Counted from the first letter of the stretch, positions 2,166 to 28,282 are shown. The stretch is DNA of 64,000 nucleotides from Malaciobacter mytili LMG 24559 (GCF_003346775.1 NZ_CP031219.1:496001-560000), one strand, 5' to 3'. Numbers and translations: made by a program. Notes: a model not told the origin generated them from the letters alone.

Positions 2166-5135
2166 ATGAATAATATCTATGAGTTTTTATCACAAAAAAA
2201 CAATTGTGAATTACTAATTGTAAATGATGATAAACAAGCACAAATTGCTTATGATATTGCCTCTTATTTAGGTTATGAACCTTTTGTTTTATCTGATTTT
2301 AGAGCAAATTTTGGAGATGATTTATTATCTTTTAATGAAGAATTACAAGAAATAACAAAAGCTTTAAATGGTTTTTATAGTTATAAAAAACAAAATAAAA
2401 TACTTATTTCACCTATTAGAACTATAACTTATCCTATGCCAAAGGCTAAATGTTTTGATAATTTTACAATAAATTTTGCAGATACTTTAAATTTAGAAGA
2501 GTTTAAATCAAAACTTTATAATTGGGGTTACTATTTTGTTGATATTGTAACTTCTGAAGCTGAGGTTTCTATAAGAGGGGATATTATTGATATTTGTCCT
2601 TTAGGAAGCCAAACAGGATATAGAATTTCTTTATTTGATGATGAAATAGAAAGTATTAGAAAGTTTGATATTGAAGATCAAAAATCATTTAAAGAAGAAA
2701 TAGAGAGTTTTACCATAACGCCTGCTTTTTTAGCCTTAGATGATTTAACTTTTCAAGAGATAAATGAAGAAGTTCAAAAGGTTGAATCAGATGCATTTAT
2801 AAAAGATATACACTCCCTTGGATTTTGGTATTTAAATGATTTAGGGGAGTATTTACCTTCAAATATGAATAGTTTTATAACTTATGAAGCATTAGATGAA
2901 CTTGAAGAAGTTTATGTATTTGAAGAAAAAAGAATAAACAAAGATAAATTTTTATCTCTTCCTCTAGTTGCTAAATCACAAGAATATAAAAATATAGAAG
3001 TTGCAAATGTAAAAGAATTTATTACTTTTCATGAGGGCAAAAAAATCACTATTATCTCTTCTAGTGAAGCAAAGATAAAAGGTTTTGATTTAGAGCTTAG
3101 TAATAAAAATATAAATTATGTAATAAAACCTTATATTATTAATTTAGTAAGCAATGAAGAAGTAATTATCTCTTTAAATAAGCAAATAAAAAAGAAAAGA
3201 AAGAAAAAAGTACGACTTGTTTTAGATGAGTTACAAGTTGGAGATTTTGTAGTTCATGAAAAACATGGTATTGGTAAATATTTAGGAATAGAACCTGTTA
3301 CGGTTATGGGTGCAAAAAGAGATTTTGTAGTTGTAATGTATGCAGGTGATGATAAGCTATTAATTCCTGTTGAAAATATAGATTTAATAGATAGATATGT
3401 AGCTGATGGAAGCTCTTATGCAGTAGTTGATAAATTAGGCAAAGGAAGTTTTGCTAAATTAAAAGAAAAAGTTAAAGATAAACTTTTTGCAATTGCAAAT
3501 GATATTATAAAATTAGCTGCAAGTAGAGAGCTTATAAATGGTATTAAAATAGATACAAATAAACAAATTTTAAATGAGTTTCAAACTAAAGCAGGCTTTG
3601 ATTATACAAAAGATCAAGTAAGAAGTGTAAGAGAAATTTTTGAAGATTTAAGTAGTGGAAAAGTAATGGATAGGCTACTATCTGGTGATGTGGGATTTGG
3701 TAAAACTGAAGTTGCAATGAATGCTCTTTTAGCCACAATTTTAGATGGTTATCAAGCTATTTTTGTTTGTCCTACTACTTTACTTGCAACTCAACATTAT
3801 CATGGAATTGCTAAAAGATTTAAAGAGTATGGTATTGTAATTGCAAAACTTGATGGTAAAACAACTGCAAAAGAGAAAACGCATATTAAAAAAGGTTTAC
3901 AAAGTGGTGAAATACAACTTGTAATAGGAACTCACTCTTTACTTGAAGTAAAAACAAAAAATTTAGCTCTTGTTGTAATTGATGAAGAGCATAAATTTGG
4001 AGTAAAACAAAAAGAGAAATTAAAAGCTTTAAGGGAAGATGTACATATTTTCTCTATGAGTGCAACCCCAATTCCAAGAACTTTAAATTTAGCCTTAAGT
4101 AAACTAAAGGGTATGAGTAGCTTATTAACTCCACCAAGTGAAAGATTAGGGGTTAGAACTTATGTTAAAGAGTATAGTGAGAAATTAATAAAAGAGATAA
4201 TTTTAAGAGAAAAAAGAAGGGGTGGACAACTTTTTTATGTGCATAATAATATCTCTTCAATGGAAGCTAAAAAAGCTGATATAGAAGCTATAGTTCCAAA
4301 TATTAAAGTTCAAATTATTCACTCACAAGTAAAACCAACAGAAGCTGAAAAGATAATAGATGCTTTTGAAGCCAAAGAGTTTGATGTTTTATTAGCTACT
4401 TCTATTGTGGAGTCTGGACTTCATTTACCTAATGCAAACTCTATTATTATTGATGGTGCAGATAGATTTGGAATTGCAGATTTACATCAATTAAGAGGAA
4501 GAGTTGGTAGAAGTAATAAAGAGGGGTTTTGTTATTATGTGGTTGAAGATAAAAAAACAATTACAAGTGATGCTATTAAAAGACTTCTTGCTTTAGAGAC
4601 TAATTCATATTTAGGCAGTGGTACAGCTTTAGCCCATCAAGATTTAGAAATAAGAGGTGGTGGTAATATTATAGGTGAAGCTCAAAGTGGGCATATTAAA
4701 CAAATTGGATATGGTTTATATTTAAAAATGCTAGAAGATGCTTTAGCAACTCTAAGTGGAGAGATTAAACAAGAAAATAAATCTGTTGATATTAAACTTG
4801 CAATAAGTGCTTATATTTCAAGTGATTATATAGTTGAAGATAGGGTAAGGTTAGAGCTATATAGAAGACTTAGTAAAGCTCATTCAAAAGAGGAAGTTTA
4901 TACAATAGAAGAAGAGATGGAAGATAGATTTGGAAAACCTGATATTCCAACAAAACAGTTTTTAGAACTAATTTTAATAAAAATTTATGCTTTAGGTTTA
5001 AATATTAAAACTATTAGCTCTTATGAGATGAATATTACTTTTATAAAAGAGGACGAGACTAAAGTAAGTATAAAATCTCCTTCAAAAGATGATGATGACA
5101 TTATTGCTACAACTTTAAAATATTTAAGAAAATAA
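2166..5135 (+). CDS. mfd: Transcription-repair coupling factor Mfd
   Basis: 989 residues, short compared with about 1150 in E. coli but normal for Campylobacterota. Mfd displaces RNA polymerase stalled at lesions and recruits UvrA. Order: a degenerate UvrB-like N-terminal region (residues 1-330), a CarD-like RNA-polymerase-interaction domain (about 350-420, VGDFVVHEKHGIGKYLG), then RecG-like helicase lobes. Walker A reads GDVGFGKTEVA (about 506-516), the DEEH box DEEHKFG, motif III MSATPIPRTL and motif VI HQLRGRVGR. A C-terminal domain follows that normally binds UvrA. The ATG directly abuts the previous stop. Confidence 0.97.
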   Translation: MNNIYEFLSQKNNCELLIVNDDKQAQIAYDIASYLGYEPFVLSDFRANFGDDLLSFNEELQEITKALNGFYSYKKQNKILISPIRTITYPMPKAKCFDNFTINFADTLNLEEFKSKLYNWGYYFVDIVTSEAEVSIRGDIIDICPLGSQTGYRISLFDDEIESIRKFDIEDQKSFKEEIESFTITPAFLALDDLTFQEINEEVQKVESDAFIKDIHSLGFWYLNDLGEYLPSNMNSFITYEALDELEEVYVFEEKRINKDKFLSLPLVAKSQEYKNIEVANVKEFITFHEGKKITIISSSEAKIKGFDLELSNKNINYVIKPYIINLVSNEEVIISLNKQIKKKRKKKVRLVLDELQVGDFVVHEKHGIGKYLGIEPVTVMGAKRDFVVVMYAGDDKLLIPVENIDLIDRYVADGSSYAVVDKLGKGSFAKLKEKVKDKLFAIANDIIKLAASRELINGIKIDTNKQILNEFQTKAGFDYTKDQVRSVREIFEDLSSGKVMDRLLSGDVGFGKTEVAMNALLATILDGYQAIFVCPTTLLATQHYHGIAKRFKEYGIVIAKLDGKTTAKEKTHIKKGLQSGEIQLVIGTHSLLEVKTKNLALVVIDEEHKFGVKQKEKLKALREDVHIFSMSATPIPRTLNLALSKLKGMSSLLTPPSERLGVRTYVKEYSEKLIKEIILREKRRGGQLFYVHNNISSMEAKKADIEAIVPNIKVQIIHSQVKPTEAEKIIDAFEAKEFDVLLATSIVESGLHLPNANSIIIDGADRFGIADLHQLRGRVGRSNKEGFCYYVVEDKKTITSDAIKRLLALETNSYLGSGTALAHQDLEIRGGGNIIGEAQSGHIKQIGYGLYLKMLEDALATLSGEIKQENKSVDIKLAISAYISSDYIVEDRVRLELYRRLSKAHSKEEVYTIEEEMEDRFGKPDIPTKQFLELILIKIYALGLNIKTISSYEMNITFIKEDETKVSIKSPSKDDDDIIATTLKYLRK

Positions 5136-5157
5136 AAAGGCCTTTTAAGGCCTTTTT
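5134..5157. terminator. Bidirectional intrinsic terminator between mfd and the HAL-like gene
   Basis: Perfect inverted repeat AAAAAGGCCTT / AAGGCCTTTTT with a 2-base centre, flanked by A and T tracts on both sides. It lies between two convergent genes and overlaps the mfd stop codon, so it can end transcripts from both strands. Confidence 0.85.
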
Positions 5158-5162
5158 ACTCT

Positions 5163-6803
5163 TTAGTTATACTCTTTTAAAAATTTTGCTGCATTTTTAA
5201 AATCATTTGTTAAAGGTCTATCATATTGTAAAAATTTTACAACTTTTCTAAAGTCATTATATAATTTTTCAGTTTTTGCTGATAGTTTTAAATTAGGATT
5301 TTCTTGTAATCTTAAATCAATAGCTTGTGCTGCAATTAATAACTCCATTCCATAAATATGGTATAAATTATCAATTTGAGTTCTAACTCTATTTAATACT
5401 TCAGGTGCATTTGTTGCAATATCTTCAATATCTCCTGCAACTGGTACATAATTTAAAGATACAGGGTTAGCTAAAACTTGGTTTTTAGAAGCAAGTGAAA
5501 CATATGGTTTTTGCATAGCTCCAAAAGCATGTACAGTATTTTTAGTTCCTAAAAATCTTGATAATTTTGTAAATTTAGGGTCTAATAATTTATTTGATCT
5601 TTGTGCAGAAGCTAATGAATTATGTGCTAATACAATAGCATTTGCTTCAAATTCAACTACCCAAGGCATAGGCTCAAAGTTTGCTGTTGGTACAACTGCA
5701 CCTTTTAATACATCAGTTTTTACATATACTTTTTTCTCTTGAAATCTATTTGTTTTTGATTCAACATCTATTGCAATGCCTGGATTATCATCTGATGAAT
5801 TCCATTGAATTTGCATTAAATTATCTAATTTTTTAATTGAAGTATCAAGTGTTCCTAAGATATATGCTGCATCTCTATAACTTAGTGGATCTTGTAAAGC
5901 TCTTGATGAATCTTCTTCCCAAAGGTAACTACCATCTAAGATTTTAGTGATTTGTGTTGCTGCTTCTACATAACCAGGAAAAGGTCTTAATTTTCTAGTT
6001 TCTGTATGCATAGGTGCAATATTTCCATTTAAAGCTTCTAAACTTAAAGCATAAACATATTTAGATACTTTTGCTAATTGTTTCATCTCTTCAAGTGCAA
6101 GTCCAGCTAAAGCTCCTGAATAAGCATTTGAGCTAATAATTGATAAAGCATCTTTTCCAAATAATGAGATTTTTTTAACATTTGCTTTTTCAAATGCCTC
6201 TTTTGTTGGCATTTTTACACCATTATAATATACTTCACCCTCTCCAATCATAGCAAGACCAATATGTCCTAAAATAGTAATATCTGCCTCACCCATTGAA
6301 CCTTTTGAAGGAATAGCTGGAATAATATTTTTATTTAAAAAAGTTTTATACATATCTACAACTTTAGATTGTACCCCTGTTCCACCAACTAAAATATTAT
6401 TTAATCTAGTTACTAATACAGCTCTTGCTTCTTTAATTGGTAAATCTTCTCCAACTCCACCACAATGTGCATGGATTAAACCTTTGTTAAAGTTTGTAGA
6501 AGCTTCTATAACTTCTTTACTTAATTTACCTTTTGCATCAACCATTTTTTTATCTTTATTTAACCCAACTCCAACTGTAAGTCCATAGATTTTGTGTCCA
6601 TTTTCGGCAGCTTGAATTAAAACATTATGCGAAGTTTGTACTTTTTTAATAGCATCATTACTAATTTTAATCTCTTCACCATTTGCTACTTGTAAAATTT
6701 TATCACTTGACATATGTTTACCATCTAGTAAAACTGGGGCTGCAAAAGCATTTATCATTCCAAATGCAATTAAACTTGTTTTTAATAAAATTATTTTAGA
6801 CAT
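5163..6803 (-). CDS. Exported HAL/PAL-family (aromatic amino acid lyase-like) protein lacking the MIO triad
   Basis: 546 residues, about 30 more than cytoplasmic histidine ammonia-lyase; the extra length is a Sec-type signal peptide (hydrophobic 4-20, likely cut after AFA). The fold is clear: the Tyr-containing loop YGLTVGVG (73-80), GSMG at 168, an Asn loop (ISSNAYSG), QDPLSYRDA with the carboxylate-binding Arg, SDDNPG, and ANFEPMP in place of GNFHGQP. However, where the family reads GSVG-ASG-DLAPL, this protein reads GSMG-EA-DITIL, so the Ala-Ser-Gly that cyclises to the MIO cofactor is missing, one residue short. Last gene of an operon with a flavoprotein and two tetraheme cytochromes; all four products are outside the cytoplasm. 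It may deaminate, isomerise or bind an amino acid; activity is unproven. Confidence 0.85.
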   Translation of the reverse strand: MSKIILLKTSLIAFGMINAFAAPVLLDGKHMSSDKILQVANGEEIKISNDAIKKVQTSHNVLIQAAENGHKIYGLTVGVGLNKDKKMVDAKGKLSKEVIEASTNFNKGLIHAHCGGVGEDLPIKEARAVLVTRLNNILVGGTGVQSKVVDMYKTFLNKNIIPAIPSKGSMGEADITILGHIGLAMIGEGEVYYNGVKMPTKEAFEKANVKKISLFGKDALSIISSNAYSGALAGLALEEMKQLAKVSKYVYALSLEALNGNIAPMHTETRKLRPFPGYVEAATQITKILDGSYLWEEDSSRALQDPLSYRDAAYILGTLDTSIKKLDNLMQIQWNSSDDNPGIAIDVESKTNRFQEKKVYVKTDVLKGAVVPTANFEPMPWVVEFEANAIVLAHNSLASAQRSNKLLDPKFTKLSRFLGTKNTVHAFGAMQKPYVSLASKNQVLANPVSLNYVPVAGDIEDIATNAPEVLNRVRTQIDNLYHIYGMELLIAAQAIDLRLQENPNLKLSAKTEKLYNDFRKVVKFLQYDRPLTNDFKNAAKFLKEYN

Positions 6804-6827
6804 TGTTTATCCTTTTTTTAAAGTTTG

Positions 6828-7421
6828 TTATTTTAAATCTTCTTCCCATTCCCCAACTGGTTCATGAGTTCTATCATATAATACTTTACTTAAATCTTCA
6901 TGCCCCACATTTTTATGGCAACTTGTACATTTAAGTGGGTCTTTATCTGCATTTTTATATTTAGTATATAAATTATGCATTTTTGTTGCTGCTGTGCTTT
7001 GACTTTCTGTCTCTTCTATATTTTTATGACAATTTAGGCAACCACTATCATATACAAAAGATTCTCTATTTTTTCTATGCTCTTGCCAATTCATTTTATT
7101 TGGGTCTTTTGTTAGTGCTGAGGTAACCTCAACAACACCATTTACCCCTTTTGTAAATAAATAGCTTGCTAAACTGCTATGAGGAAGGTGACAAGAAACA
7201 CATGTTGTTTTAATTCCATATTGGTTTTTACCTCCATGTTTATCATCTAAATAAGTATCCACCATAGGTTGCATCCATGTATGACATGATACGCAAAACT
7301 TATCATCACTTGTTGCTTTAATTGCACTATGTCCAGTAAAAGTAAAAATTAATCCAAATACTATACTGCTTGCAATTATTGTTAATAATATTTTTTTATT
7401 TTTTAAAAAATCAAATTTCAT
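6828..7421 (-). CDS. NapC/NirT/NrfH-type membrane-anchored tetraheme cytochrome c (FccC-like)
   Basis: 197 residues. One N-terminal transmembrane anchor (about 9-30), then four CXXCH haem-binding motifs: CVSCH, CVSCH, CLNCH and CTSCH. This architecture belongs to the NapC/NrfH family, which takes electrons from menaquinol in the inner membrane and passes them to periplasmic reductases. It lies 12 bases downstream of the small cytochrome gene and 24 bases before the HAL-like gene. Order and content match the Wolinella fccA-fccB-fccC cluster, where FccC is the quinol-facing partner. The electron-donor role here is by family and context. Confidence 0.9.
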   Translation of the reverse strand: MKFDFLKNKKILLTIIASSIVFGLIFTFTGHSAIKATSDDKFCVSCHTWMQPMVDTYLDDKHGGKNQYGIKTTCVSCHLPHSSLASYLFTKGVNGVVEVTSALTKDPNKMNWQEHRKNRESFVYDSGCLNCHKNIEETESQSTAATKMHNLYTKYKNADKDPLKCTSCHKNVGHEDLSKVLYDRTHEPVGEWEEDLK

Positions 7422-7433
7422 CTCATCTACTCC

Positions 7434-7859
7434 TTATGGTACTAATAATTTTTTCATAGAGTCTTGAGAATGGCACATTACACAATAATTTTGTGTTGAT
7501 TTATGTGATGAGTGACATAAATTACAATCCATTTTTGGATAATGAGGTGATGCGTGAATATTATCATCATATCCTAAAAACTGTGTTCTTTTTGCTAAAG
7601 TTTTATAATCTTTATGACATTCTAAACAGTTTTTAGTTGTTAATTCTTTATAAGACTCTTTTGGTCCATCTCCATGACAATCAGCACATTGAAACCTTAA
7701 TTTCTCATGGTGTGCTTTAATAGGATAATTTTTTTTAGAGTATTTACTATTATCATCTTGGATTTTTGTAGCAATATTTGAATCTGTACTATTTGCAGAT
7801 ACAACTATTGCAAAAAATGCAAGCATAGTAATAGTTGCTGTTAAGATAATTTTTTTCAT
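7434..7859 (-). CDS. Periplasmic tetraheme cytochrome c (FccB-like)
   Basis: 141 residues with a signal peptide (hydrophobic 4-21, cut near SANS). Four CXXCH motifs follow: CADCH, CLECH, CNLCH and CVMCH. Size and haem spacing resemble the cytochrome domain of Shewanella flavocytochrome c fumarate reductase, encoded here as a separate protein as in Wolinella FccB. It most likely carries electrons from the NapC-type anchor to the flavoprotein. It begins 8 bases after the flavoprotein stop with a good RBS (AGGAGA), so the genes are co-transcribed. Confidence 0.9.
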   Translation of the reverse strand: MKKIILTATITMLAFFAIVVSANSTDSNIATKIQDDNSKYSKKNYPIKAHHEKLRFQCADCHGDGPKESYKELTTKNCLECHKDYKTLAKRTQFLGYDDNIHASPHYPKMDCNLCHSSHKSTQNYCVMCHSQDSMKKLLVP

Positions 7860-7867
7860 TTCTTCTC

Positions 7868-9427
7868 CTATACTTTTAATAATTCAACTGCACTTTGAGC
7901 TGCAATTCTTCCAAATACCAAACAATCTGGAATTGCACAACTTCCAAGCCGACTTGCACCATGAGGACCTCCAACAGCTTCACCTGCAGCAAATAATCCC
8001 TCAATTGGATTTTCATTTTTATCAAGTACCCTTGCTTTTGTATCAATAGCAACTCCTCCCATAGTATGGTGTACTTTAGGAATAGCTCTAAAGGCATAAT
8101 AAGGAGGTTTAGAAATATCTGGAACAAATTTATTTCTTAATTTAAAAAATGGTTTATTCATCTCTTCATCTTTTCCATTTTTTACATATCTATTATAATC
8201 TTCAACAGTTTTCTTTAAACTCTCAACAGGAATATTATAAAATTCTGCCAAATCTTCTAATGTATCAAATTTATGAATAACTTTTTTATGAATACCTCTA
8301 TAAACATTCTCTTTTCTAGTTCCTGTTGCCCCTACGCTATCACAAAAAACAATTGGATGAGTTAAACTTCCATCTGCATTTTTATGGATTTTTAAAATAG
8401 CTTCAGCTCTAATTTTTCTATCTGCTAATTCATTAACAAATCTTTTTCCAGTTCTTGCATCAACCATAACTCCATAAGCAAAAGCAGGAATTGCAAAAAC
8501 AGGAGCAATACCAAAACCTTTTTCATCTGGTGAGCCCCAAGGTCCCATTTGTATCCAAGCTAGATCTTTAGTTTTTACATTATGTTTCATCATCATTTTT
8601 AAAGAGTATGCTGTTGCCCCATAATGGTTTGTACAGTCTAAATCTGGTGTTAATTGTGAATCAAGTTTTTGTCTAAAATTAACATCATAAGAAAACCCAC
8701 CAGTTGCCATAACAACTCCACCATTTATTTTGTAGTACTTAGTAACCCCAGTTTTATTATTTTCTTCATTGAAATTAGGATCAAACTTAAATTTGTAATT
8801 TTCTCTTACTTTTATTCCAATTACTTTTTTACCTTTTTTATCAAAGATTAAATCATCTAAAATCACTTTAGTTCTAATAGTTGCTCCTTTTTTAAGAGCA
8901 TACTCTTGTAAAGGAATTGTAATTTTTCCACCTGAGTTAATTGTTGGCCAAATTGTTCTTGGAACAGAGTGTCCTCCAAAGTGTCCTAAGTTATCTCTAT
9001 AAATCACACCTCTTTGTGTTGTAAATTTATATGCTTCAAATCCATTTTTTGCAATAACTTCAACTAACTCTTTTTGATTTAATCCAAGTCCTGCTTTATA
9101 GATATCTTTTACATATAATTCATAAGAGTCTTCTATTCCTCTTTCTTGTTGTTGAGGTGAACCAACTATTGCAAAGGCACCTCCATTAATAGCTGAGTTT
9201 CCACCAAGTACTGGCATCTTATCAATCATTAATGTTTTTGCTTGTAATTCAATGCCTTGGCATAAAGCAGCTGAACCGGCAAAACCAGAACCCACAACTA
9301 CAATATCCCACTCCTCATCCCATTTGATACTCTCTTCTTGTGCGAATAAATTAGTATTTATTCCCATAAAAGTAATACCTCCTAGAACAGTAGCATTTTT
9401 AACAAATTCTCTTCTAGTAATTTTCAA
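7868..9427 (-). CDS. Tat-exported FAD-dependent reductase of the fumarate/urocanate reductase family (FccA-like)
   Basis: 519 residues. The Tat signal TRREFVKNATVLGG sits at 4-17. FAD-binding motifs are VVVGSGFAGSAA (43-54) and GGNSAINGGAF (75-85), with GLFAAGEAVGG near the C-terminus. Catalytic-type residues are kept: GKRFVNELADR (327-337, putative proton-donor Arg), HHTMGGV and GASRLGS. The C4-carboxylate pocket differs: IQMGPW (292-297) stands where Shewanella fumarate reductase has IQAHP, so the His is replaced by Gly. The substrate is therefore probably an unsaturated acid other than fumarate, as in urocanate or cinnamate reductases. There is no haem or covalent-FMN domain; electrons must come from the downstream cytochromes. 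The start is TTG at 9427 with AAGGAG upstream. Confidence 0.88.
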   Translation of the reverse strand: MKITRREFVKNATVLGGITFMGINTNLFAQEESIKWDEEWDIVVVGSGFAGSAALCQGIELQAKTLMIDKMPVLGGNSAINGGAFAIVGSPQQQERGIEDSYELYVKDIYKAGLGLNQKELVEVIAKNGFEAYKFTTQRGVIYRDNLGHFGGHSVPRTIWPTINSGGKITIPLQEYALKKGATIRTKVILDDLIFDKKGKKVIGIKVRENYKFKFDPNFNEENNKTGVTKYYKINGGVVMATGGFSYDVNFRQKLDSQLTPDLDCTNHYGATAYSLKMMMKHNVKTKDLAWIQMGPWGSPDEKGFGIAPVFAIPAFAYGVMVDARTGKRFVNELADRKIRAEAILKIHKNADGSLTHPIVFCDSVGATGTRKENVYRGIHKKVIHKFDTLEDLAEFYNIPVESLKKTVEDYNRYVKNGKDEEMNKPFFKLRNKFVPDISKPPYYAFRAIPKVHHTMGGVAIDTKARVLDKNENPIEGLFAAGEAVGGPHGASRLGSCAIPDCLVFGRIAAQSAVELLKV

Positions 9428-9458
9428 AATGAACTCCTTCTATGGTTTGTTAAATCAA

Positions 9459-9464
9459 ATTATA
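9459..9464 (-). promoter_or_regulatory. Candidate -10 element of the flavoprotein-cytochrome-HAL operon
   Basis: On the minus strand this reads TATAAT, about 32 bases before the TTG start of the flavoprotein gene, in the 130-base divergent gap. No clear -35 is seen, which is usual for Campylobacterota sigma-70 promoters. Confidence 0.5.
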
Positions 9465-9475
9465 AATAAAGTAGT

Positions 9476-9507
9476 GGGTCTAAATAATAACCAAAAAGTT
9501 CAGTCCC
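9476..9507. promoter_or_regulatory. Candidate operator: imperfect inverted repeat in the divergent promoter region
   Basis: GGGTCTAAA, 14 bases, then TTCAGTCCC: 7 of 9 positions pair. It lies just upstream of the minus-strand -10 element, where an activator would bind, between the respiratory operon and its divergent sensor kinase/regulator pair. Binding by that regulator is inference. Confidence 0.35.
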
Positions 9508-9562
9508 ATATAAAAGTAAAAGGGATATAATTTAAAATAAAATATTAGAAAAAGAATAGTTG

Positions 9563-11575
9563 ATGAGAAAACCTTTTTATAAAAATACTAAAATATTTTT
9601 TAGTTTTAGTCTTATATTTTTTTTACTTATTTTAAGTAACTATATTATTAATTTACATATCCTTCAAAGTATGATTTCTGACCAGCAAACAAATACTATA
9701 AAAGGTGCTTCAAAAAGAATTAGTAAGTGGCTTAATCAAAAAATAAATAGTATGGAAGTTATTAAGAATTTTATTAAAGATATAGACCATACAAAACATG
9801 CAAAAGATATAGAAAATATACTTTTACAAAGTAAAGAAGTTGCCAGTTTTGCAAATGTTTATGTGGGATATGAAGATGATACTACTTTATCTGGGCTTAG
9901 TTGGAATAAACCTGATAATTATATTACAACAGCTAGACCTTGGTATATAAAAACTCAAGTAAATAAACAAACTACTATTACAGACCCTTATTTTGATGTA
10001 GGTTTTAAAAAAGTAGTTGTTGCAATATGTACTCCTTTTCTTGAAGAAAATAAAAAACAAGGAGTAATTTGTGGAATACTTCCTTTAAATGATATAAGAA
10101 ATGAAATATTAGATATTCCCTTACCTTATGATGGAATAGCTTTTTTAATTGATAGTTATGGAAGAATACTGCTTCATCCTGATGAAAAACAGCAATTAAA
10201 AAACTCTTTTTACAGCTTTCCAACAGAAAATAAAATGACAAAAGTTAATAATGAATTTGATAGTTATATTTTTTCCCATGACCATATAAATCAATCAAAT
10301 TGGTTTATTATTGCCCAATTAAATAAAAGTAGTGTATATAAGAAAATAAACCTTCAATTATTGATAAATTTAACCATATATGCTATTAGTGTTTTAGTTT
10401 TTATTATTTTAAATGTAATTTATCAAAATAGACAAAATATAAGTGATGAAAAACTAAAAAAAACTGAAACTTTATTAAATCACTTTATTGATTTTGCTGA
10501 TAGGGGGATTTTAATAGCCGATTCAACAAATAAGATTTTATTTTTTAACACTTCTTTTACTGAGTATTTAAAAATAGATAAAAAAGATGTGGAAGATACT
10601 TTTTTAAACTATGAAAATAATCTTTTTAAGATTTTTCCATTGGAGTTTAGTATTGAAATTTATAATAAGATTAAAGAAGTAAAAGCTTTAAAACAGACTG
10701 TTGAAGTTGATATAATGCATAAAGAGAGTGAGAAATACTTTCATATTACAATTTTACCTGTATTAAGTAGTGATAAAACTTATCAAGGTTTAATATTATT
10801 TTTTCAAGATGTTACTTTAAAAGAAAAAGGAAAAATTTATAAAAAAGAGCAAGAAGATATTCTTTTTCAACAGGCAAAAATGGCTGATTTAGGAGAGATG
10901 ATAGCTGCAATTTCTCATCAATGGAGACAACCGTTAAACTCTTTATCTATAATGGTTGGAAACCTACTTCAATTTAAACAAATGGGGCATTTAACTGATG
11001 AGATATTTGAAGAAAATTTAAAACATAGTATGGTTAATATTCACTATTTAGCAGATACTATTGAAACTTTTAGAAATTTTTATAAAACAAGTAAAAAAGC
11101 TGAAAGCTTTGAAATAGATAAGGCAATTAATGAAGTATTTTATATACTTTCACCTCATTTTAAAAATCTTGGAATAGAGCTTGAAATTAAAGTGTTTGAA
11201 GCTGAAACTTTAGAGTGCTTAAATTATAAAAATGAATTTCAACAAGTTATTGCAAACTTAATACATAATTCAAAAGATGCAATTATTGATTGTAAAAAAT
11301 GTCCTAAAAAGATTATAATTGAAATTTTTTTAAAAAAAGAGATTTTTTATATAAGAGTTAAAGATTATGGAAATGGAATTTCTTTTAAAATTAGAAATAA
11401 TCTATTTCAAGCCTTTCAAACAACTAAAAAGCAAAAAGGAACGGGAAAAGGTTTATATCTTTCTCGTTTAATTGCTAAGAAAAAACTTGATGGAAGTTTA
11501 TCTATAAGTAATTATGAAAATCCAACAGAGTTTTTATTAACGCTACCTTTAAAAAGGAAAGAAGAAAATGATTGA
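9563..11575 (+). CDS. Membrane sensor histidine kinase with Cache-type periplasmic domain and PAS
   Basis: About 670 residues from ATG at 9563 (a TTG one codon upstream is possible). Transmembrane helices lie at about 12-34 and 268-288. The periplasmic loop of about 230 residues looks like a dCache small-molecule sensor (RPWYIKTQVNKQTTITDPYF, then GIAFLIDSYGRILLHPD). A PAS-like domain (about 305-425), an H-box AAISHQWRQPLNSLS and an intact ATP-binding domain follow (NLIHNSKDAI, DYGNGIS, GTGKGLYLSR). Divergent from the FccABC/HAL operon and overlapping the next gene by 8 bases. Position suggests it senses the substrate of the operon. Confidence 0.9.
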   Translation: MRKPFYKNTKIFFSFSLIFFLLILSNYIINLHILQSMISDQQTNTIKGASKRISKWLNQKINSMEVIKNFIKDIDHTKHAKDIENILLQSKEVASFANVYVGYEDDTTLSGLSWNKPDNYITTARPWYIKTQVNKQTTITDPYFDVGFKKVVVAICTPFLEENKKQGVICGILPLNDIRNEILDIPLPYDGIAFLIDSYGRILLHPDEKQQLKNSFYSFPTENKMTKVNNEFDSYIFSHDHINQSNWFIIAQLNKSSVYKKINLQLLINLTIYAISVLVFIILNVIYQNRQNISDEKLKKTETLLNHFIDFADRGILIADSTNKILFFNTSFTEYLKIDKKDVEDTFLNYENNLFKIFPLEFSIEIYNKIKEVKALKQTVEVDIMHKESEKYFHITILPVLSSDKTYQGLILFFQDVTLKEKGKIYKKEQEDILFQQAKMADLGEMIAAISHQWRQPLNSLSIMVGNLLQFKQMGHLTDEIFEENLKHSMVNIHYLADTIETFRNFYKTSKKAESFEIDKAINEVFYILSPHFKNLGIELEIKVFEAETLECLNYKNEFQQVIANLIHNSKDAIIDCKKCPKKIIIEIFLKKEIFYIRVKDYGNGISFKIRNNLFQAFQTTKKQKGTGKGLYLSRLIAKKKLDGSLSISNYENPTEFLLTLPLKRKEEND

Positions 11576-12257
11576 TGCAAAAGTATTAAGAAAGTTATCA
11601 AATATACATGTTTTAATTGTAGAAGATGATGAAATGACTGCTTATGTTATAAAACAGTCTTTAAGTTTTCACTGTAAAAAAGTTGATATTGCCAATAATG
11701 GAATAGAGGGGTTTGAAATGTATGAAAGCAAAAAACCTGATGTTGTTATTGCTGATATTAATATGCCAGAGATGAATGGCTTAGAAATGGTAAAAGCTTT
11801 ACATGAAATCTCTCCTCATTTACCAGTTATTATTATGACTTCTTATGATAATTCAGAAAATATGCTAGAGAGTATTAATCAAGGTGCTTATAGTTATTTA
11901 AGAAAACCTATAAAAATTGAAGAACTTCAAACAGCTCTTTTAATGGCAACAAAAGATATTTATAATTCAAATATTGAGTTAGAAGAGAACTTTCATTATG
12001 AGTGTAATACAAAAACTTTATTTAAAGAACATAGACCAGTAAAATTAACAAAAACACAAAAAGAGCTTGTACATCTTCTTATGTCAAATATTAATAAAGT
12101 TGTTGATTTTACTACAATTGAGAGTTATGTTTGGCAAGAAAAAAGTATGAGTATTGAAGCTTTAAGAATGTGTATTAAAAAAATTAGGACAAAAACTTAT
12201 TTAAAATTAATTGAGAGTGTACCTGGTTCTGGATATATAATAAATTCAAAAAAATAG
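11568..12257 (+). CDS. OmpR-type response regulator (receiver plus winged helix)
   Basis: 229 residues. The receiver domain (about 12-130) has acidic residues EDDE, the phosphorylation site in IADINMPEMNG, the conserved Thr/Ser region IIMTS and Lys in LRKP. The C-terminal winged-helix domain (about 145-227: VKLTKTQKELVHLLM, AGCTID-like end VPGSGYII) is OmpR/PhoB type. It overlaps the kinase gene by 8 bases, so the two form a cognate pair. The most likely target is the divergent minus-strand operon, whose upstream region has an imperfect inverted repeat. The target assignment is inference. Confidence 0.92.
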   Translation: MIDAKVLRKLSNIHVLIVEDDEMTAYVIKQSLSFHCKKVDIANNGIEGFEMYESKKPDVVIADINMPEMNGLEMVKALHEISPHLPVIIMTSYDNSENMLESINQGAYSYLRKPIKIEELQTALLMATKDIYNSNIELEENFHYECNTKTLFKEHRPVKLTKTQKELVHLLMSNINKVVDFTTIESYVWQEKSMSIEALRMCIKKIRTKTYLKLIESVPGSGYIINSKK

Positions 12258-12277
12258 ACCTTTTAAAGGTCTATTTT
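12252..12277 (+). terminator. Intrinsic terminator after the response regulator
   Basis: AAATAGACCTTT, one T, AAAGGTCTATTT followed by more T. The perfect 12-base arms include the regulator's TAG stop. Confidence 0.8.
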
Positions 12278-14620: not shown

Positions 14621-14648
14621 ATATTTTAGGATTTAATTCCTAAAATAT
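14621..14648. terminator. Bidirectional intrinsic terminator
   Basis: Inverted repeat ATATTTTAGGA / TCCTAAAATAT with a TTTAAT centre, between the convergent exchanger and flavoprotein genes. It overlaps the end of the minus-strand gene. Confidence 0.65.
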
Positions 14649-15927
14649 CTTCAATTAAACCAAAATACCACCCTTGTGCTGCTATTGCTATATCTTCTTG
14701 GATTTTTGAAGTAAAGCTATTTGCTTTAAAAGTATCTTTATACTCATATAAATGAGAAATAGAGACAGCTTTATTATCTGTAATCATAGAATAACAAATA
14801 TTTCCAGGTAAATTTTCTTTATAATTAAACTTTTTATTGTTTATTCTATCAATTAACTCTTGCGCAACTAAATAAGCAGTTGAATTTGCCATTTGTGCTG
14901 ATTTTGGAAAGGCATATTCTCCTTGTGAATCTCCTATTATATAAACATCTTCTGAAGAAATAGATCTAAATGTAGGCTGTCTAAGTTTTGCCCAGCCATT
15001 TTCATATGTAGCAAGATTTGCTTTTTTTATAAGTTCATTTGCTTTATTTGGTGGAATTATATTTGCTTCTTCAAACTCTAAACTTAAAGTTAGATATTCA
15101 AGTTTTTCTTTATTAAACTCTTCATATACAATTTTTTTTGTTTTAAAATCTATATCTTTAAAGTTAGAATAGGGTTTATAAACTATTATATCTTTATAAA
15201 AAGTTTCAAAAGCTTCTAAGAATTTTTTAGGTTTTGCTGCTGGTTTTTCTCTTGGGTCCAAAACTATAACTTTTGCTTTGATATTATGCTTTTTAAAGTA
15301 GTTTGCAATCATACAAGCTCTTTCATAAGGGGCAGGGGGACATTTATAAGTTCCATTTGGAATAGAAATTACAAAGTTCCCACCCTTAAAGTTTTTAATC
15401 ATTCTTTTTAAAGCTAAGTGTTCACTTCCTGGTTTTAATCCTGCTGGGGCTTTTAATTTGCACTCTTTAATTTTATTTATATCTTTAAAAAGTTTTTCAT
15501 AATCATAATCTATTCCCACAGCCATAATTAAATACTCATATTCAATTATATGGTTTGAAGTTATAATTTGTTTTTTATCTTTATTGATTTTTTCGATAGT
15601 TTCATTAATAAAATTATAATTATATTTTAAAATTGCACTATTAAAATCATAATTTAAATCTTCATAACTAATATTTAAAGCTTCACCCAACCAAGCATTT
15701 GATAAGGGGCAAGAAGAAAAATTTGCTCTTTTTTCTATTACAGTTACATCTAAATCTTTATTTAATTCTTTTAAATGTTTTGCACATGATAATCCTGCAA
15801 AGCCACCTCCACATATTGCAACTTTTGTTTTTATAGTAGATGTATTTATCTGTTTTGCATTTATATTTGAAGTTGTTAAAAGTGCAGCACTAACAAAAGA
15901 GTATTTAAAAAAATCTCTTCTAATCAT
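14626..15927 (-). CDS. Tat-exported sulfide dehydrogenase (FCSD/SoxF-like) flavoprotein
   Basis: 433 residues. A Tat signal (RRDFFKYSFVSAALL) at 3-17, then an FAD-binding GGGFAGLSCAKHL (about 40-52). FSSCPLSNAWLG near residue 70 resembles the flavin-proximal Cys segment of flavocytochrome c sulfide dehydrogenase, and YKCPPAPYERACMIA near 193 is a hallmark of that family. The second nucleotide motif ends IIGDSQGEYAFPKSAQMANS, also typical. Function by family: periplasmic oxidation of sulfide to sulfur or polysulfide. The usual small cytochrome c subunit is not next to it, so the electron acceptor is open. It could instead be a SoxF-type or unspecialised member. Confidence 0.82.
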   Translation of the reverse strand: MIRRDFFKYSFVSAALLTTSNINAKQINTSTIKTKVAICGGGFAGLSCAKHLKELNKDLDVTVIEKRANFSSCPLSNAWLGEALNISYEDLNYDFNSAILKYNYNFINETIEKINKDKKQIITSNHIIEYEYLIMAVGIDYDYEKLFKDINKIKECKLKAPAGLKPGSEHLALKRMIKNFKGGNFVISIPNGTYKCPPAPYERACMIANYFKKHNIKAKVIVLDPREKPAAKPKKFLEAFETFYKDIIVYKPYSNFKDIDFKTKKIVYEEFNKEKLEYLTLSLEFEEANIIPPNKANELIKKANLATYENGWAKLRQPTFRSISSEDVYIIGDSQGEYAFPKSAQMANSTAYLVAQELIDRINNKKFNYKENLPGNICYSMITDNKAVSISHLYEYKDTFKANSFTSKIQEDIAIAAQGWYFGLIEDILGIKS

Positions 15928-26290: not shown

Positions 26291-26311
26291 TAACAAAAGT
26301 TACTAACTAAG
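26282..26311. terminator. Intrinsic terminator between convergent kinase and BCCT genes
   Basis: Perfect 13-base arms CTTAGTTAGTAAC / GTTACTAACTAAG around an AAAA loop. The T run follows on the minus-strand side, so it chiefly ends the BCCT transcript; it overlaps both stop codons. Confidence 0.8.
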
Positions 26312-28282
26312 TAGATGAATAAAGTGCATATGTTTTTGGTAGTGATCAACTATATCATTTCTAACACCTTCTTTTGACCAACCCATAATATCATAATCTT
26401 GCCCACCTTCTATTAGGTGAACTTCTGCACAATAGTATAACTCTTCTTCTTGTTTTAAAGAGTTTTCTTTTTCATCTTGAGCAAAATTTGGTTTTGTTCT
26501 TTCAACTAATCTTACTTCATAAATAAAGTTTTTATTTTCTCCAAAATTTCCCTCTTCTCCTATATTTACAATTAAAGTGATTTTTTCATTTTTATCATCT
26601 TCTTTTATTGTGGCATCTAAATCATGTTTTCTTAACTGTGTCTCAATATCAATAAATGCAGGTTTTGCAATAGTTTGTATAAACTTTTTTACATTTGTTT
26701 TTGATGGATATTTTATTATATTACTTAATCTAGTATCCCAATTATCCTTAGTTTGACTAGGGGTAAATGGAGTAACATTGTATTGTAAGCTCTCTTTTTT
26801 AGCTATATCAACCCTTAATGCTTTTATAAGACCATATGTGGCTACTAATAAAATAATAGAAAAAGGTAAAGCACTTGCTATTGTCATTGTTTGTAAGGCT
26901 GCTAAGCCTCCAGCTATTATTAAAATAGAAGCTATAACTCCCTCTCCAACAGCCCAATATACCCTTTGCCAAATAGGAGTATTATTATTTCCATTTGAAC
27001 AAAGCATATCTATTACCATAGAACCAGAATCAGCTGAAGTTACAAAAAATATAATTACCATTATAGTTGCAAAAAATGAAGTTATACCACTAAAACTAAA
27101 ATTTTCTAAAAATGCAAAAAGTGCAATTGTTACATCATTTGATACGGTACTTCCTAAAGCTGTAATACCTTCATTTAAAATTAAATTAATAGCAGAATTT
27201 CCAAAAAAAGTCATCCACATTAAAGTAAATCCTGTTGGGACTAATAAAACACCTAATGTAAACTCTCTAATTGTTCTACCTCTTGAGATTCTTGCAATGA
27301 AAAGCCCCACAAAAGGTGACCATGAAATCCACCATGCCCAATATAAAATTGTCCAACCCCCAATCCAATCAGTTTTTTCATAAGCATATAAATTAAAAGT
27401 ACTATTTAGTAAGTTTGAAGCATAAGCTCCTATATTTTGAACATATGCTTTAAGTAAAAAAATAGTAGGACCTACAAGTAAGATAAATACAAGTAAAATT
27501 ACTGCTAATAAGATATTTAGCTCAGATAACTTTTTTATTCCTTTATCAAGTCCTGTTGTTACTGAAATAGTCGCAAGTGCTGTTATACCTATGATTAATA
27601 CCACTTGTGAAGTTGTATTAACAGGAATATCCCAAAGATAATTAAGTCCTGTATTTACTTGTAAAACTCCATATCCAAGTGAAGTTGCTACTCCAAAAAG
27701 TGTTCCAATTACTGCAAAAATATCAACAGTATGTCCTATTGGGCCATATATTTTATCTCCAATTATGGGATATAAAGCAGACCTTAGAGTAAGAGGAAGA
27801 TTGTGTCTATAACTAAAAAAAGCTAAGATTATAGCTACTATTGCATAAATAGCCCAAGCATGTAATCCCCAGTGAAAGAAAGTGATTTTCATAGCTTCTC
27901 TTGCTGCTTCAACTGTTTTTCCATCACCAACTGGAGGATTTAAAAAGTGCATAACAGGTTCAGCCACCCCAAAAAACATAAGACCAATTCCCATTCCAGC
28001 AGAAAAAAGCATAGCAAACCAAGATAGATATGAATAATCAGCAGTTGAATGATCAGGGCCTAATTTTATATCCCCATATTTTGAAAAGGCTAAATAAGCA
28101 ACAGTAATTAAAATAATAGCAACAGTTAAAACATAAAACCAACTTCCATTTTCTACAATAATATTTTGTAGTTTTTGAAAAAAATCATTGGCATTACTTG
28201 GAAATATTGAAGCAAAAAGTGCCAATGCCAAAATAAGTCCAGATGAAATAAAAAATACATTTTTATTTAATTTTTTTTCCAT
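26303..28282 (-). CDS. BCCT-family transporter (glycine betaine/choline type)
   Basis: 659 residues, twelve transmembrane helices and a cytoplasmic C-terminal domain of about 150 residues. Family signatures are visible: GMGIGLMFFGVAEPVMHF (about 95-112) and the Trp-rich WAWWISWSPFVGLFIARISRG (about 318-338) that forms the trimethylammonium-binding box. FVTSADSGS is also typical. The long C-terminus resembles BetT, where it regulates osmotic activation. It would take up betaine, choline or carnitine for osmoprotection. It stands alone between convergent and divergent neighbours. Confidence 0.94.
   Translation of the reverse strand: MEKKLNKNVFFISSGLILALALFASIFPSNANDFFQKLQNIIVENGSWFYVLTVAIILITVAYLAFSKYGDIKLGPDHSTADYSYLSWFAMLFSAGMGIGLMFFGVAEPVMHFLNPPVGDGKTVEAAREAMKITFFHWGLHAWAIYAIVAIILAFFSYRHNLPLTLRSALYPIIGDKIYGPIGHTVDIFAVIGTLFGVATSLGYGVLQVNTGLNYLWDIPVNTTSQVVLIIGITALATISVTTGLDKGIKKLSELNILLAVILLVFILLVGPTIFLLKAYVQNIGAYASNLLNSTFNLYAYEKTDWIGGWTILYWAWWISWSPFVGLFIARISRGRTIREFTLGVLLVPTGFTLMWMTFFGNSAINLILNEGITALGSTVSNDVTIALFAFLENFSFSGITSFFATIMVIIFFVTSADSGSMVIDMLCSNGNNNTPIWQRVYWAVGEGVIASILIIAGGLAALQTMTIASALPFSIILLVATYGLIKALRVDIAKKESLQYNVTPFTPSQTKDNWDTRLSNIIKYPSKTNVKKFIQTIAKPAFIDIETQLRKHDLDATIKEDDKNEKITLIVNIGEEGNFGENKNFIYEVRLVERTKPNFAQDEKENSLKQEEELYYCAEVHLIEGGQDYDIMGWSKEGVRNDIVDHYQKHMHFIHLLS

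Follow-up and report, generated by a model that had tools for sequence, protein, structure and literature searches.

Malaciobacter mytili LMG 24559 is a member of the Campylobacterota with a genome of 3.04 Mb. An operon in this genome is probably a regulated periplasmic module for ergothioneine respiration, a reading drawn from sequence comparison to which we give a probability of roughly 0.7. The operon lies in a window of 64,000 nucleotides, which is the whole stretch of DNA analyzed. Ergothioneine is a diet-derived mushroom antioxidant that animals absorb via a dedicated transporter. An exported lyase that lacks MIO, a predicted ergothionase, would eliminate trimethylamine from ergothioneine and generate thiourocanate in the periplasm. 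A Tat-exported flavoprotein would then reduce the enoate double bond of thiourocanate, yielding 3-(2-thioxo-imidazol-4-yl)propionate. By analogy with the FccABC architecture, electrons would pass from menaquinol to a NapC-type tetrahaem protein, to a soluble tetrahaem cytochrome, and on to FAD. A Cache kinase may sense the substrate or, more likely, periplasmic thiourocanate, and its regulator would switch on the divergent operon. The acceptor and its products could all stay outside the cytoplasm, and trimethylamine and the propionate would be released.

All six genes described in an earlier, sequence-only reading of this DNA were recovered at the same positions. Its minus-strand operon and divergent kinase and regulator agree with the coordinates and domain matches (Table 1). 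The operon is made up of four genes with intergenic gaps of just 8, 12, and 24 bases. It contains an exported flavoprotein, a separate tetrahaem cytochrome, and a NapC-type quinol dehydrogenase and is thus an FccABC-type respiratory operon. The flavoprotein gene has a TTG start behind GGAG and encodes the twin-arginine motif TRREFVK. The kinase starts at ATG 9563, or at TTG 9560 in the ORF listing, and its gene overlaps that of the regulator. Promoter-like sites in the region are no commoner than in shuffled sequence and none is claimed; no convincing regulator repeat was found in the intergenic stretch 9420-9570. The window also encodes a BCCT family betaine/carnitine/choline transporter (26303-28282, minus strand), with no evidence linking it to the module, and a flavocytochrome c sulfide dehydrogenase-like flavoprotein (FCSD; 14626-15927, minus strand).

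Table 1. Features of the module, in window coordinates. Terminator-like hairpins are no more numerous in the region than in shuffled sequence.
Feature	Position	Strand	Evidence
Tat-exported FAD flavoprotein, predicted thiourocanate reductase (UrdA/FccA fold)	7868..9427	-	TIGR01813, 6t85, 6t86
Soluble periplasmic tetrahaem cytochrome, c3-like electron shuttle	7434..7859	-	PF14537 9.8e-17; 4 CXXCH; signal peptide
NapC/NrfH-type tetrahaem quinol dehydrogenase, membrane-anchored	6828..7421	-	PF03264 1.8e-28; 4 CXXCH; N-terminal membrane anchor
Exported MIO-less HAL-fold lyase, predicted ergothionase (ergothioneine trimethylamine-lyase)	5163..6803	-	PF00221, 407 bits; signal peptide; MSKIILLKTSLIAFGMINAFA
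GSMGEADIT at the MIO-triad site of the lyase	6276..6302	-	Alignments
dCache-PAS histidine kinase, predicted ligand sensor	9563..11575	+	PF02743, HisKA, HATPase_c
dCache ligand-pocket motif in the kinase	9917..10078	+	Y121-R126-W128-Y129 at 9917-9946; Y144 kept; D173 replaced by Ile at 10076-10078
OmpR-type response regulator, predicted activator of the divergent operon	11568..12257	+	PF00072, PF00486
Palindromic terminator-like hairpin between mfd and the operon end	5133..5158	.	
Palindromic terminator-like hairpin after the kinase/regulator pair	12251..12277	.	

The lyase is strongly inferred to belong to the ergothionase family, and its activity is a prediction from that placement. Its closest PDB sequence match is the Treponema denticola ergothionase 6s7j (E 1.4e-96), followed at a distance by the best histidine ammonia-lyase (HAL), 7tqr (2.8e-48). 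The structures 6s7j/6s7q are reportedly those of Maurer et al. 2019. The AlphaFold model of the lyase (pLDDT 89.8) also has 6s7j as its top structural match (Z 43.0, rmsd 2.4, 487 residues aligned), and the HAL 7tqr is next at Z 41.1. Fold comparison alone would not decide the identity of the lyase; the sequence and the missing MIO do. MIO enzymes carry GSVG-ASG-D at the triad site, where the lyase reads GSMG-EA-D and the segment is one residue shorter. The T. denticola enzyme aligns there as SSIGEGDIT and is likewise one residue shorter. The label "HAL family" in the sequence-only reading therefore holds for the fold and fails for the enzyme.

MIO turns the amino group of a free amino acid into a leaving group. 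Ergothionase needs no MIO because trimethylamine leaves easily. Since the closest solved relative of the lyase is an ergothionase, trimethylamine is the expected leaving group and the betaine ergothioneine the expected substrate. The sequence-only reading had proposed an exported histidine or aromatic amino acid ammonia-lyase that supplies urocanate or cinnamate to the reductase. The PF00221 fold is consistent with such an enzyme, and a urocanate reductase is the nearest match of the flavoprotein. However, the MIO triad is absent from the window lyase and from all its relatives, and the score against the curated HutH model is 277 bits, about half the cut-off of 539. Ammonia-lyase membership was rejected on these two grounds. 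The flavoprotein also lacks the UrdA residues Tyr373/Asp388 and the sensor has lost Asp173, and amino acid deamination as the source of the acceptor is highly improbable.

The curated NCBIfam collection has no ergothionase model that the lyase matches, so its identity rests on the PDB match, the residues, the tree, and the genomic context. The residues were compared in an alignment of 83 MIO-less sequences that takes in the T. denticola ergothionase. N82-K83-D84, D218, S224, D338, and G457 are invariant in all 83, unlike in the MIO enzymes compared. Y73 (T. denticola Y53) and E460 (T. denticola E411), which are common to the MIO enzymes compared, are also invariant in 83/83. In T. denticola numbering, the positions Y53, N62-K63-D64, R280, D308, and E411 are all invariant across the MIO-less set. 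In a tree made by a quick method and with some long branches, the lyase falls in a clade with the T. denticola ergothionase (support 100), apart from the MIO enzymes.

The host genome offers an internal contrast to the lyase. Its second PF00221 protein (L001:1411-2943; G000:C1:229015-230409) is a cytosolic MIO enzyme, in which the motif GSVGASGDL is intact and a signal peptide is lacking. The gene adjoins a FabG-type reductase and an acyltransferase-like protein, and its surroundings resemble an aryl-polyene/flexirubin cluster.

Relatives of the lyase were collected by a scan of one genome per species, which gave 256, of which the best 80 were kept. With the window and the same-order loci added, 82 genes were scored for context. 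A flavoprotein is located within 6 kb of the lyase at 40 of these 82 loci, and thiourocanate hydratase or thiohydantoin desulfurase stands beside it at 22. Neither context is present at 20 loci, and the two never occur together (0/82). These mutually exclusive contexts divide the genomes with a MIO-less lyase into some where the family is linked to ergothioneine and others where it is linked to respiration. At roughly half of the MIO-less loci sampled, the lyase is thus connected to a respiratory reductase. The signal-peptide test is passed by 75 of the 82 relatives, including 22/22 in assimilatory ergothioneine operons. An exported lyase unique to the window locus was therefore rejected, and export is not in itself what is novel here.

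The assimilatory context is also present in the order of the window. One genome of this order (G352, locus L009) encodes an exported relative that is 35% identical to the window lyase. Its neighbor scores 536 bits as a thiohydantoin desulfurase (curated cut-off 440), a name that comes from NCBIfam, and a PDB search gave no match for it. The hydratase at this locus scores 911 bits as thiourocanate hydratase, for which the cut-off is 930, and 660 as HutU. In the M. mytili genome, no urocanase and no S-Me-THD-type thiohydantoin desulfurase were found; this genome thus lacks the route by which thiourocanate is known to be assimilated.

The ergothionases of T. denticola and of Burkholderia/Cupriavidus share with the window lyase the MIO-less HAL fold and the same conserved active-site positions, at 39-54% identity. 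The Burkholderia-type relatives carry signal peptides, as the window lyase does, whereas the T. denticola ergothionase does not. The Burkholderia-type genes examined mostly feed assimilatory thiourocanate hydratase/desulfurase, whereas the partner of the window lyase is a respiratory reductase.

By the same mechanism, the lyase could act on another betaine, e.g., hercynine or tyrosine/tryptophan betaine, and the flavoprotein could reduce the matching enoate (urocanate, cinnamate/indole acrylate). The chemistry needs just a trimethylammonium leaving group, and the Tyr/Asp pair of UrdA is missing from the window flavoprotein. Substrate variants probably exist, given a second Shewanella lyase group, described below, that is found with UrdA-type flavoproteins in which this pair is kept. 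Against this, the window lyase groups next to relatives whose loci carry the thiourocanate-specific hydratase and desulfurase. It is also closer to the T. denticola ergothionase than is the Cupriavidus neocaledonicus member, whose match is weaker (2.1e-77). A different betaine is therefore unlikely, and ergothioneine is the preferred substrate.

Members of the exported MIO-less family occur in Campylobacterota, Shewanella, Ferrimonas, Enterobacterales (Citrobacter, Leminorella, and a species of Escherichia), the gut genera Parasutterella and Turicimonas, and a spirochaete. An old report is said to describe ergothionase in E. coli. The cassette of Escherichia sp. MOD1-EC7003 (L084) has no close DNA match in complete E. 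coli genomes by a near-match search. MIO-less lyases of cyanobacteria (L029, L033, L037, L040) and of Legionella gratiana (L085) have neither context nearby. MIO-less HAL-fold lyases also occur on Sinorhizobium meliloti megaplasmids.

The flavoprotein scores 434 bits against TIGR01813 (cut-off 285). Its best PDB match is the urocanate reductase 6t85 (E 5e-71), and its model (pLDDT 84.9) has 6t86 as the top structural match (Z 44.8). UrdA from Shewanella oneidensis (6t85-6t88; Nat Commun 2021, PMC7921117) has the same FAD/clamp fold and is a periplasmic enoate reductase, as is predicted for the window protein. In UrdA, Arg411, His520, and Arg560 serve in substrate carboxylate binding and proton donation (PMC7921117), and the equivalents of all three are kept in the window protein. 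The specificity residues Tyr373/Asp388 are absent, with Gly and Ile/Pro in their place and an insertion in the alignment at this point. His365/Thr377 of Fcc3, which bind the second carboxylate of fumarate, are replaced by Gly/Ile. No FMN_bind match was found in the window flavoprotein, and the N-terminal covalent-FMN domain is present in the proteins of L080, L051, and L136. Membership of either the UrdA or the fumarate reductase class was ruled out by the specificity residues and the missing FMN domain, with catalytic residues and fold matching. Unlike in UrdA, separate haem proteins would deliver the electrons and the acceptor would be made in the periplasm. The pocket fits an enoate that would be neither fumarate nor plain urocanate, and does not alone point to thiourocanate; that substrate is suggested by the partner gene rather than by the pocket. 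The motif QxGPWxSPDExGFG of the window flavoprotein also occurs in non-linked flavoproteins.

Operons of the FccABC/methacrylate type in Campylobacterota also combine a flavoprotein, a separate tetrahaem cytochrome, and a NapC-type quinol dehydrogenase, some with a homologous Cache kinase. They differ from the window operon in having no lyase, and their flavoproteins are only 36-49% identical and fall in separate clades. Four loci (L124-L127; genomes G070, G373, G271, and G065) have related FccABC-type flavoproteins and no lyase, near a homologous Cache kinase in which Arg126 is lost. These are probably sister modules for other acceptors.

The lyase might instead serve mainly in nitrogen/carbon supply or antioxidant removal, with the flavoprotein acting on an unrelated acceptor (fumarate, methacrylate) and only regulation being shared. 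FccABC-type enzymes use fumarate or methacrylate, and the existence of lyase-free FccABC-type flavoproteins near a homologous kinase agrees with this. However, the fumarate-binding His365/Thr377 pair is not conserved, the assimilatory enzymes are absent from the host genome, and the lyase and flavoprotein co-occur perfectly in Shewanella, are exclusive to the same genomes within the order, and are paired again with unrelated flavoprotein clades. Such a split of functions is quite improbable, and lyase and reductase acting in sequence on ergothioneine is preferred.

Within the order, 399 genomes were compared. A close lyase (63-100% identity) occurs in three only, and the same three are the only genomes with the flavoprotein at 70-100%; the next flavoproteins reach at most ~49% over partial length. 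Of the named relatives, a Halarcobacter MAG is the nearest at this site, with a lyase 79% identical to that of the window. Four Campylobacter loci (L007, L008, L012, and L013) and one Halarcobacter locus (L011) encode the lyase, flavoprotein, tetrahaem cytochrome, NapC-type protein, kinase, and regulator. Gene orders at these five loci differ from that of the window, and an Opr-type porin, absent at the window locus, is usually present. The arrangement is not due to chance, as the genes come together again, in varying order, at these five loci. In the Halarcobacter locus, a TMAO reductase of the TorA type and a protein resembling the TorC C-terminus directly adjoin the cassette (L011:11986-15034), as though trimethylamine chemistry had been grouped there. 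In a Campylobacter sp. MAG (L012) and in Campylobacter gastrosuis (L013), the linked flavoprotein comes out as two ORFs, with an in-frame TAA inside it in the latter; this is either a pseudogene or a sequencing error.

The lyase and flavoprotein pair recurs in Gammaproteobacteria, Sutterellaceae, and a spirochaete. In Shewanella, a lyase orthologue (at least 75% identity) occurs in 41 of 117 genomes, and a flavoprotein orthologue is present, adjacent, in exactly those 41; these genomes are related to each other, and the counts are not independent events. One strain with the pair is Shewanella sp. ANA-3 (L072). In three further Shewanella genomes, the diverged second lyase group is the only one present. 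The patchy presence in Shewanella shows that the pair is gained and lost as a unit. Random co-occurrence, named beforehand in the sequence-only reading as the outcome that would count against it, clearly fails across the 399 genomes of the order, the 117 Shewanella genomes, and the wider loci. The same co-occurrence supports its proposal that a periplasmic lyase is coupled to an FccABC-type reductase and that the lyase product would be the electron acceptor.

The linked flavoproteins form at least three well-separated clades in a tree with long branches. One is made up of Campylobacterota proteins, one of Gammaproteobacteria and Turicimonas proteins, and one of the UrdA-like FMN proteins of Parasutterella and Brevinema. 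Electron input also differs, with a NapC-type protein in Campylobacterota and a seven-haem protein fused to cytochrome b561 in Enterobacterales. The pairing of exported lyase and respiratory reductase seems to have been assembled several times. Such recurrent construction out of different components provides the strongest case for lyase and reductase acting in sequence. The three flavoprotein clades also fit several substrates.

The kinase is predicted to be a dedicated sensor, as the sequence-only reading had proposed; the amino acid ligand suggested there is disfavored. The dCache domains described as amino acid sensors bind the ligand carboxylate through Arg126 and touch its amine at the Asp173 position (PMC10104139). 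Tyr121, Arg126, Trp128, Tyr129, and Tyr144 are conserved in each of the six lyase-linked kinases, and in all six Asp173 is replaced by Ile or Val. Within the dCache_1AA motif (Y121/R126/W128/Y129/D173), D173 alone is missing in each. Asp173 is kept in other kinases of the family, i.e., the second kinase of L011 and those of L131, L133, and L134. With Arg126 kept and Asp173 lost, the pocket is expected to take a carboxylate that has no free amine, which argues against a free amino acid. Thiourocanate would fit, and we infer it as the likely ligand. The lost Asp173 offers a testable rule for Cache domains that bind such carboxylates.

Ergothionase, FccABC chains, and UrdA are all known. Cross-feeding on thiourocanate between Clostridium symbiosum and Bacteroides xylanisolvens is described as supporting anaerobic growth and ATP synthesis of gut bacteria (Zhou et al. 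2025, as related in PMC13405746). As far as that account goes, conversion of ergothioneine to thiourocanate supports anaerobic energy metabolism there, as proposed for the window. The cross-feeding involves two species, whereas the window places both steps, the electron chain, and the sensor in one operon of one cell. The open-access literature contains no report of a single operon making thiourocanate in the periplasm and respiring it, nor of the distribution of such an operon; subscription papers were outside the scope of the search. What is new is a regulated, periplasmic form within a single operon, together with how widely it is spread and its repeated assembly. A 2026 survey found ergothionase limited to a few genera, and itself pointed out that divergent homologues could escape notice, as searches return HAL/PAL (PMC13405746). 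The two-gene signature of a GE[AG]DIT lyase and a flavoprotein allows prediction from any genome. If the proposed role is correct, ergothioneine would be the precursor of a terminal electron acceptor and not only a nitrogen source, as well as a source of trimethylamine.

A wider class of lyase-primed periplasmic respiration is a tentative proposal that falls somewhat short of even odds. Exported MIO-less lyases would expel trimethylamine from extracellular histidine-like betaines, each paired with an enoate reductase. As a joint part of this proposal, advanced with the same reserve, three or more lineages may have supplied the reductases independently: one FccA-like in Campylobacterota, one a gammaproteobacterial/Sutterellaceae clade, and one UrdA-like with FMN. 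Bacteria of this class would themselves produce their terminal electron acceptor, and would do so outside the cytoplasm. One idea is that the second Shewanella group does the same with another substrate, e.g., hercynine to urocanate.

This second, diverged MIO-less HAL-fold group has the motifs GVGKNKDT and GSVGLSDI. Its members are found at L136:7026-10575 (G449), L137:8913-12502 (G514), L138:3561-10348 (G423), and L135:8068-9648 (G432), the last with a contig end near the lyase gene. Except at L135, these lyases adjoin flavoproteins of the UrdA type, in which the urocanate signature Tyr373/Asp388 is retained.
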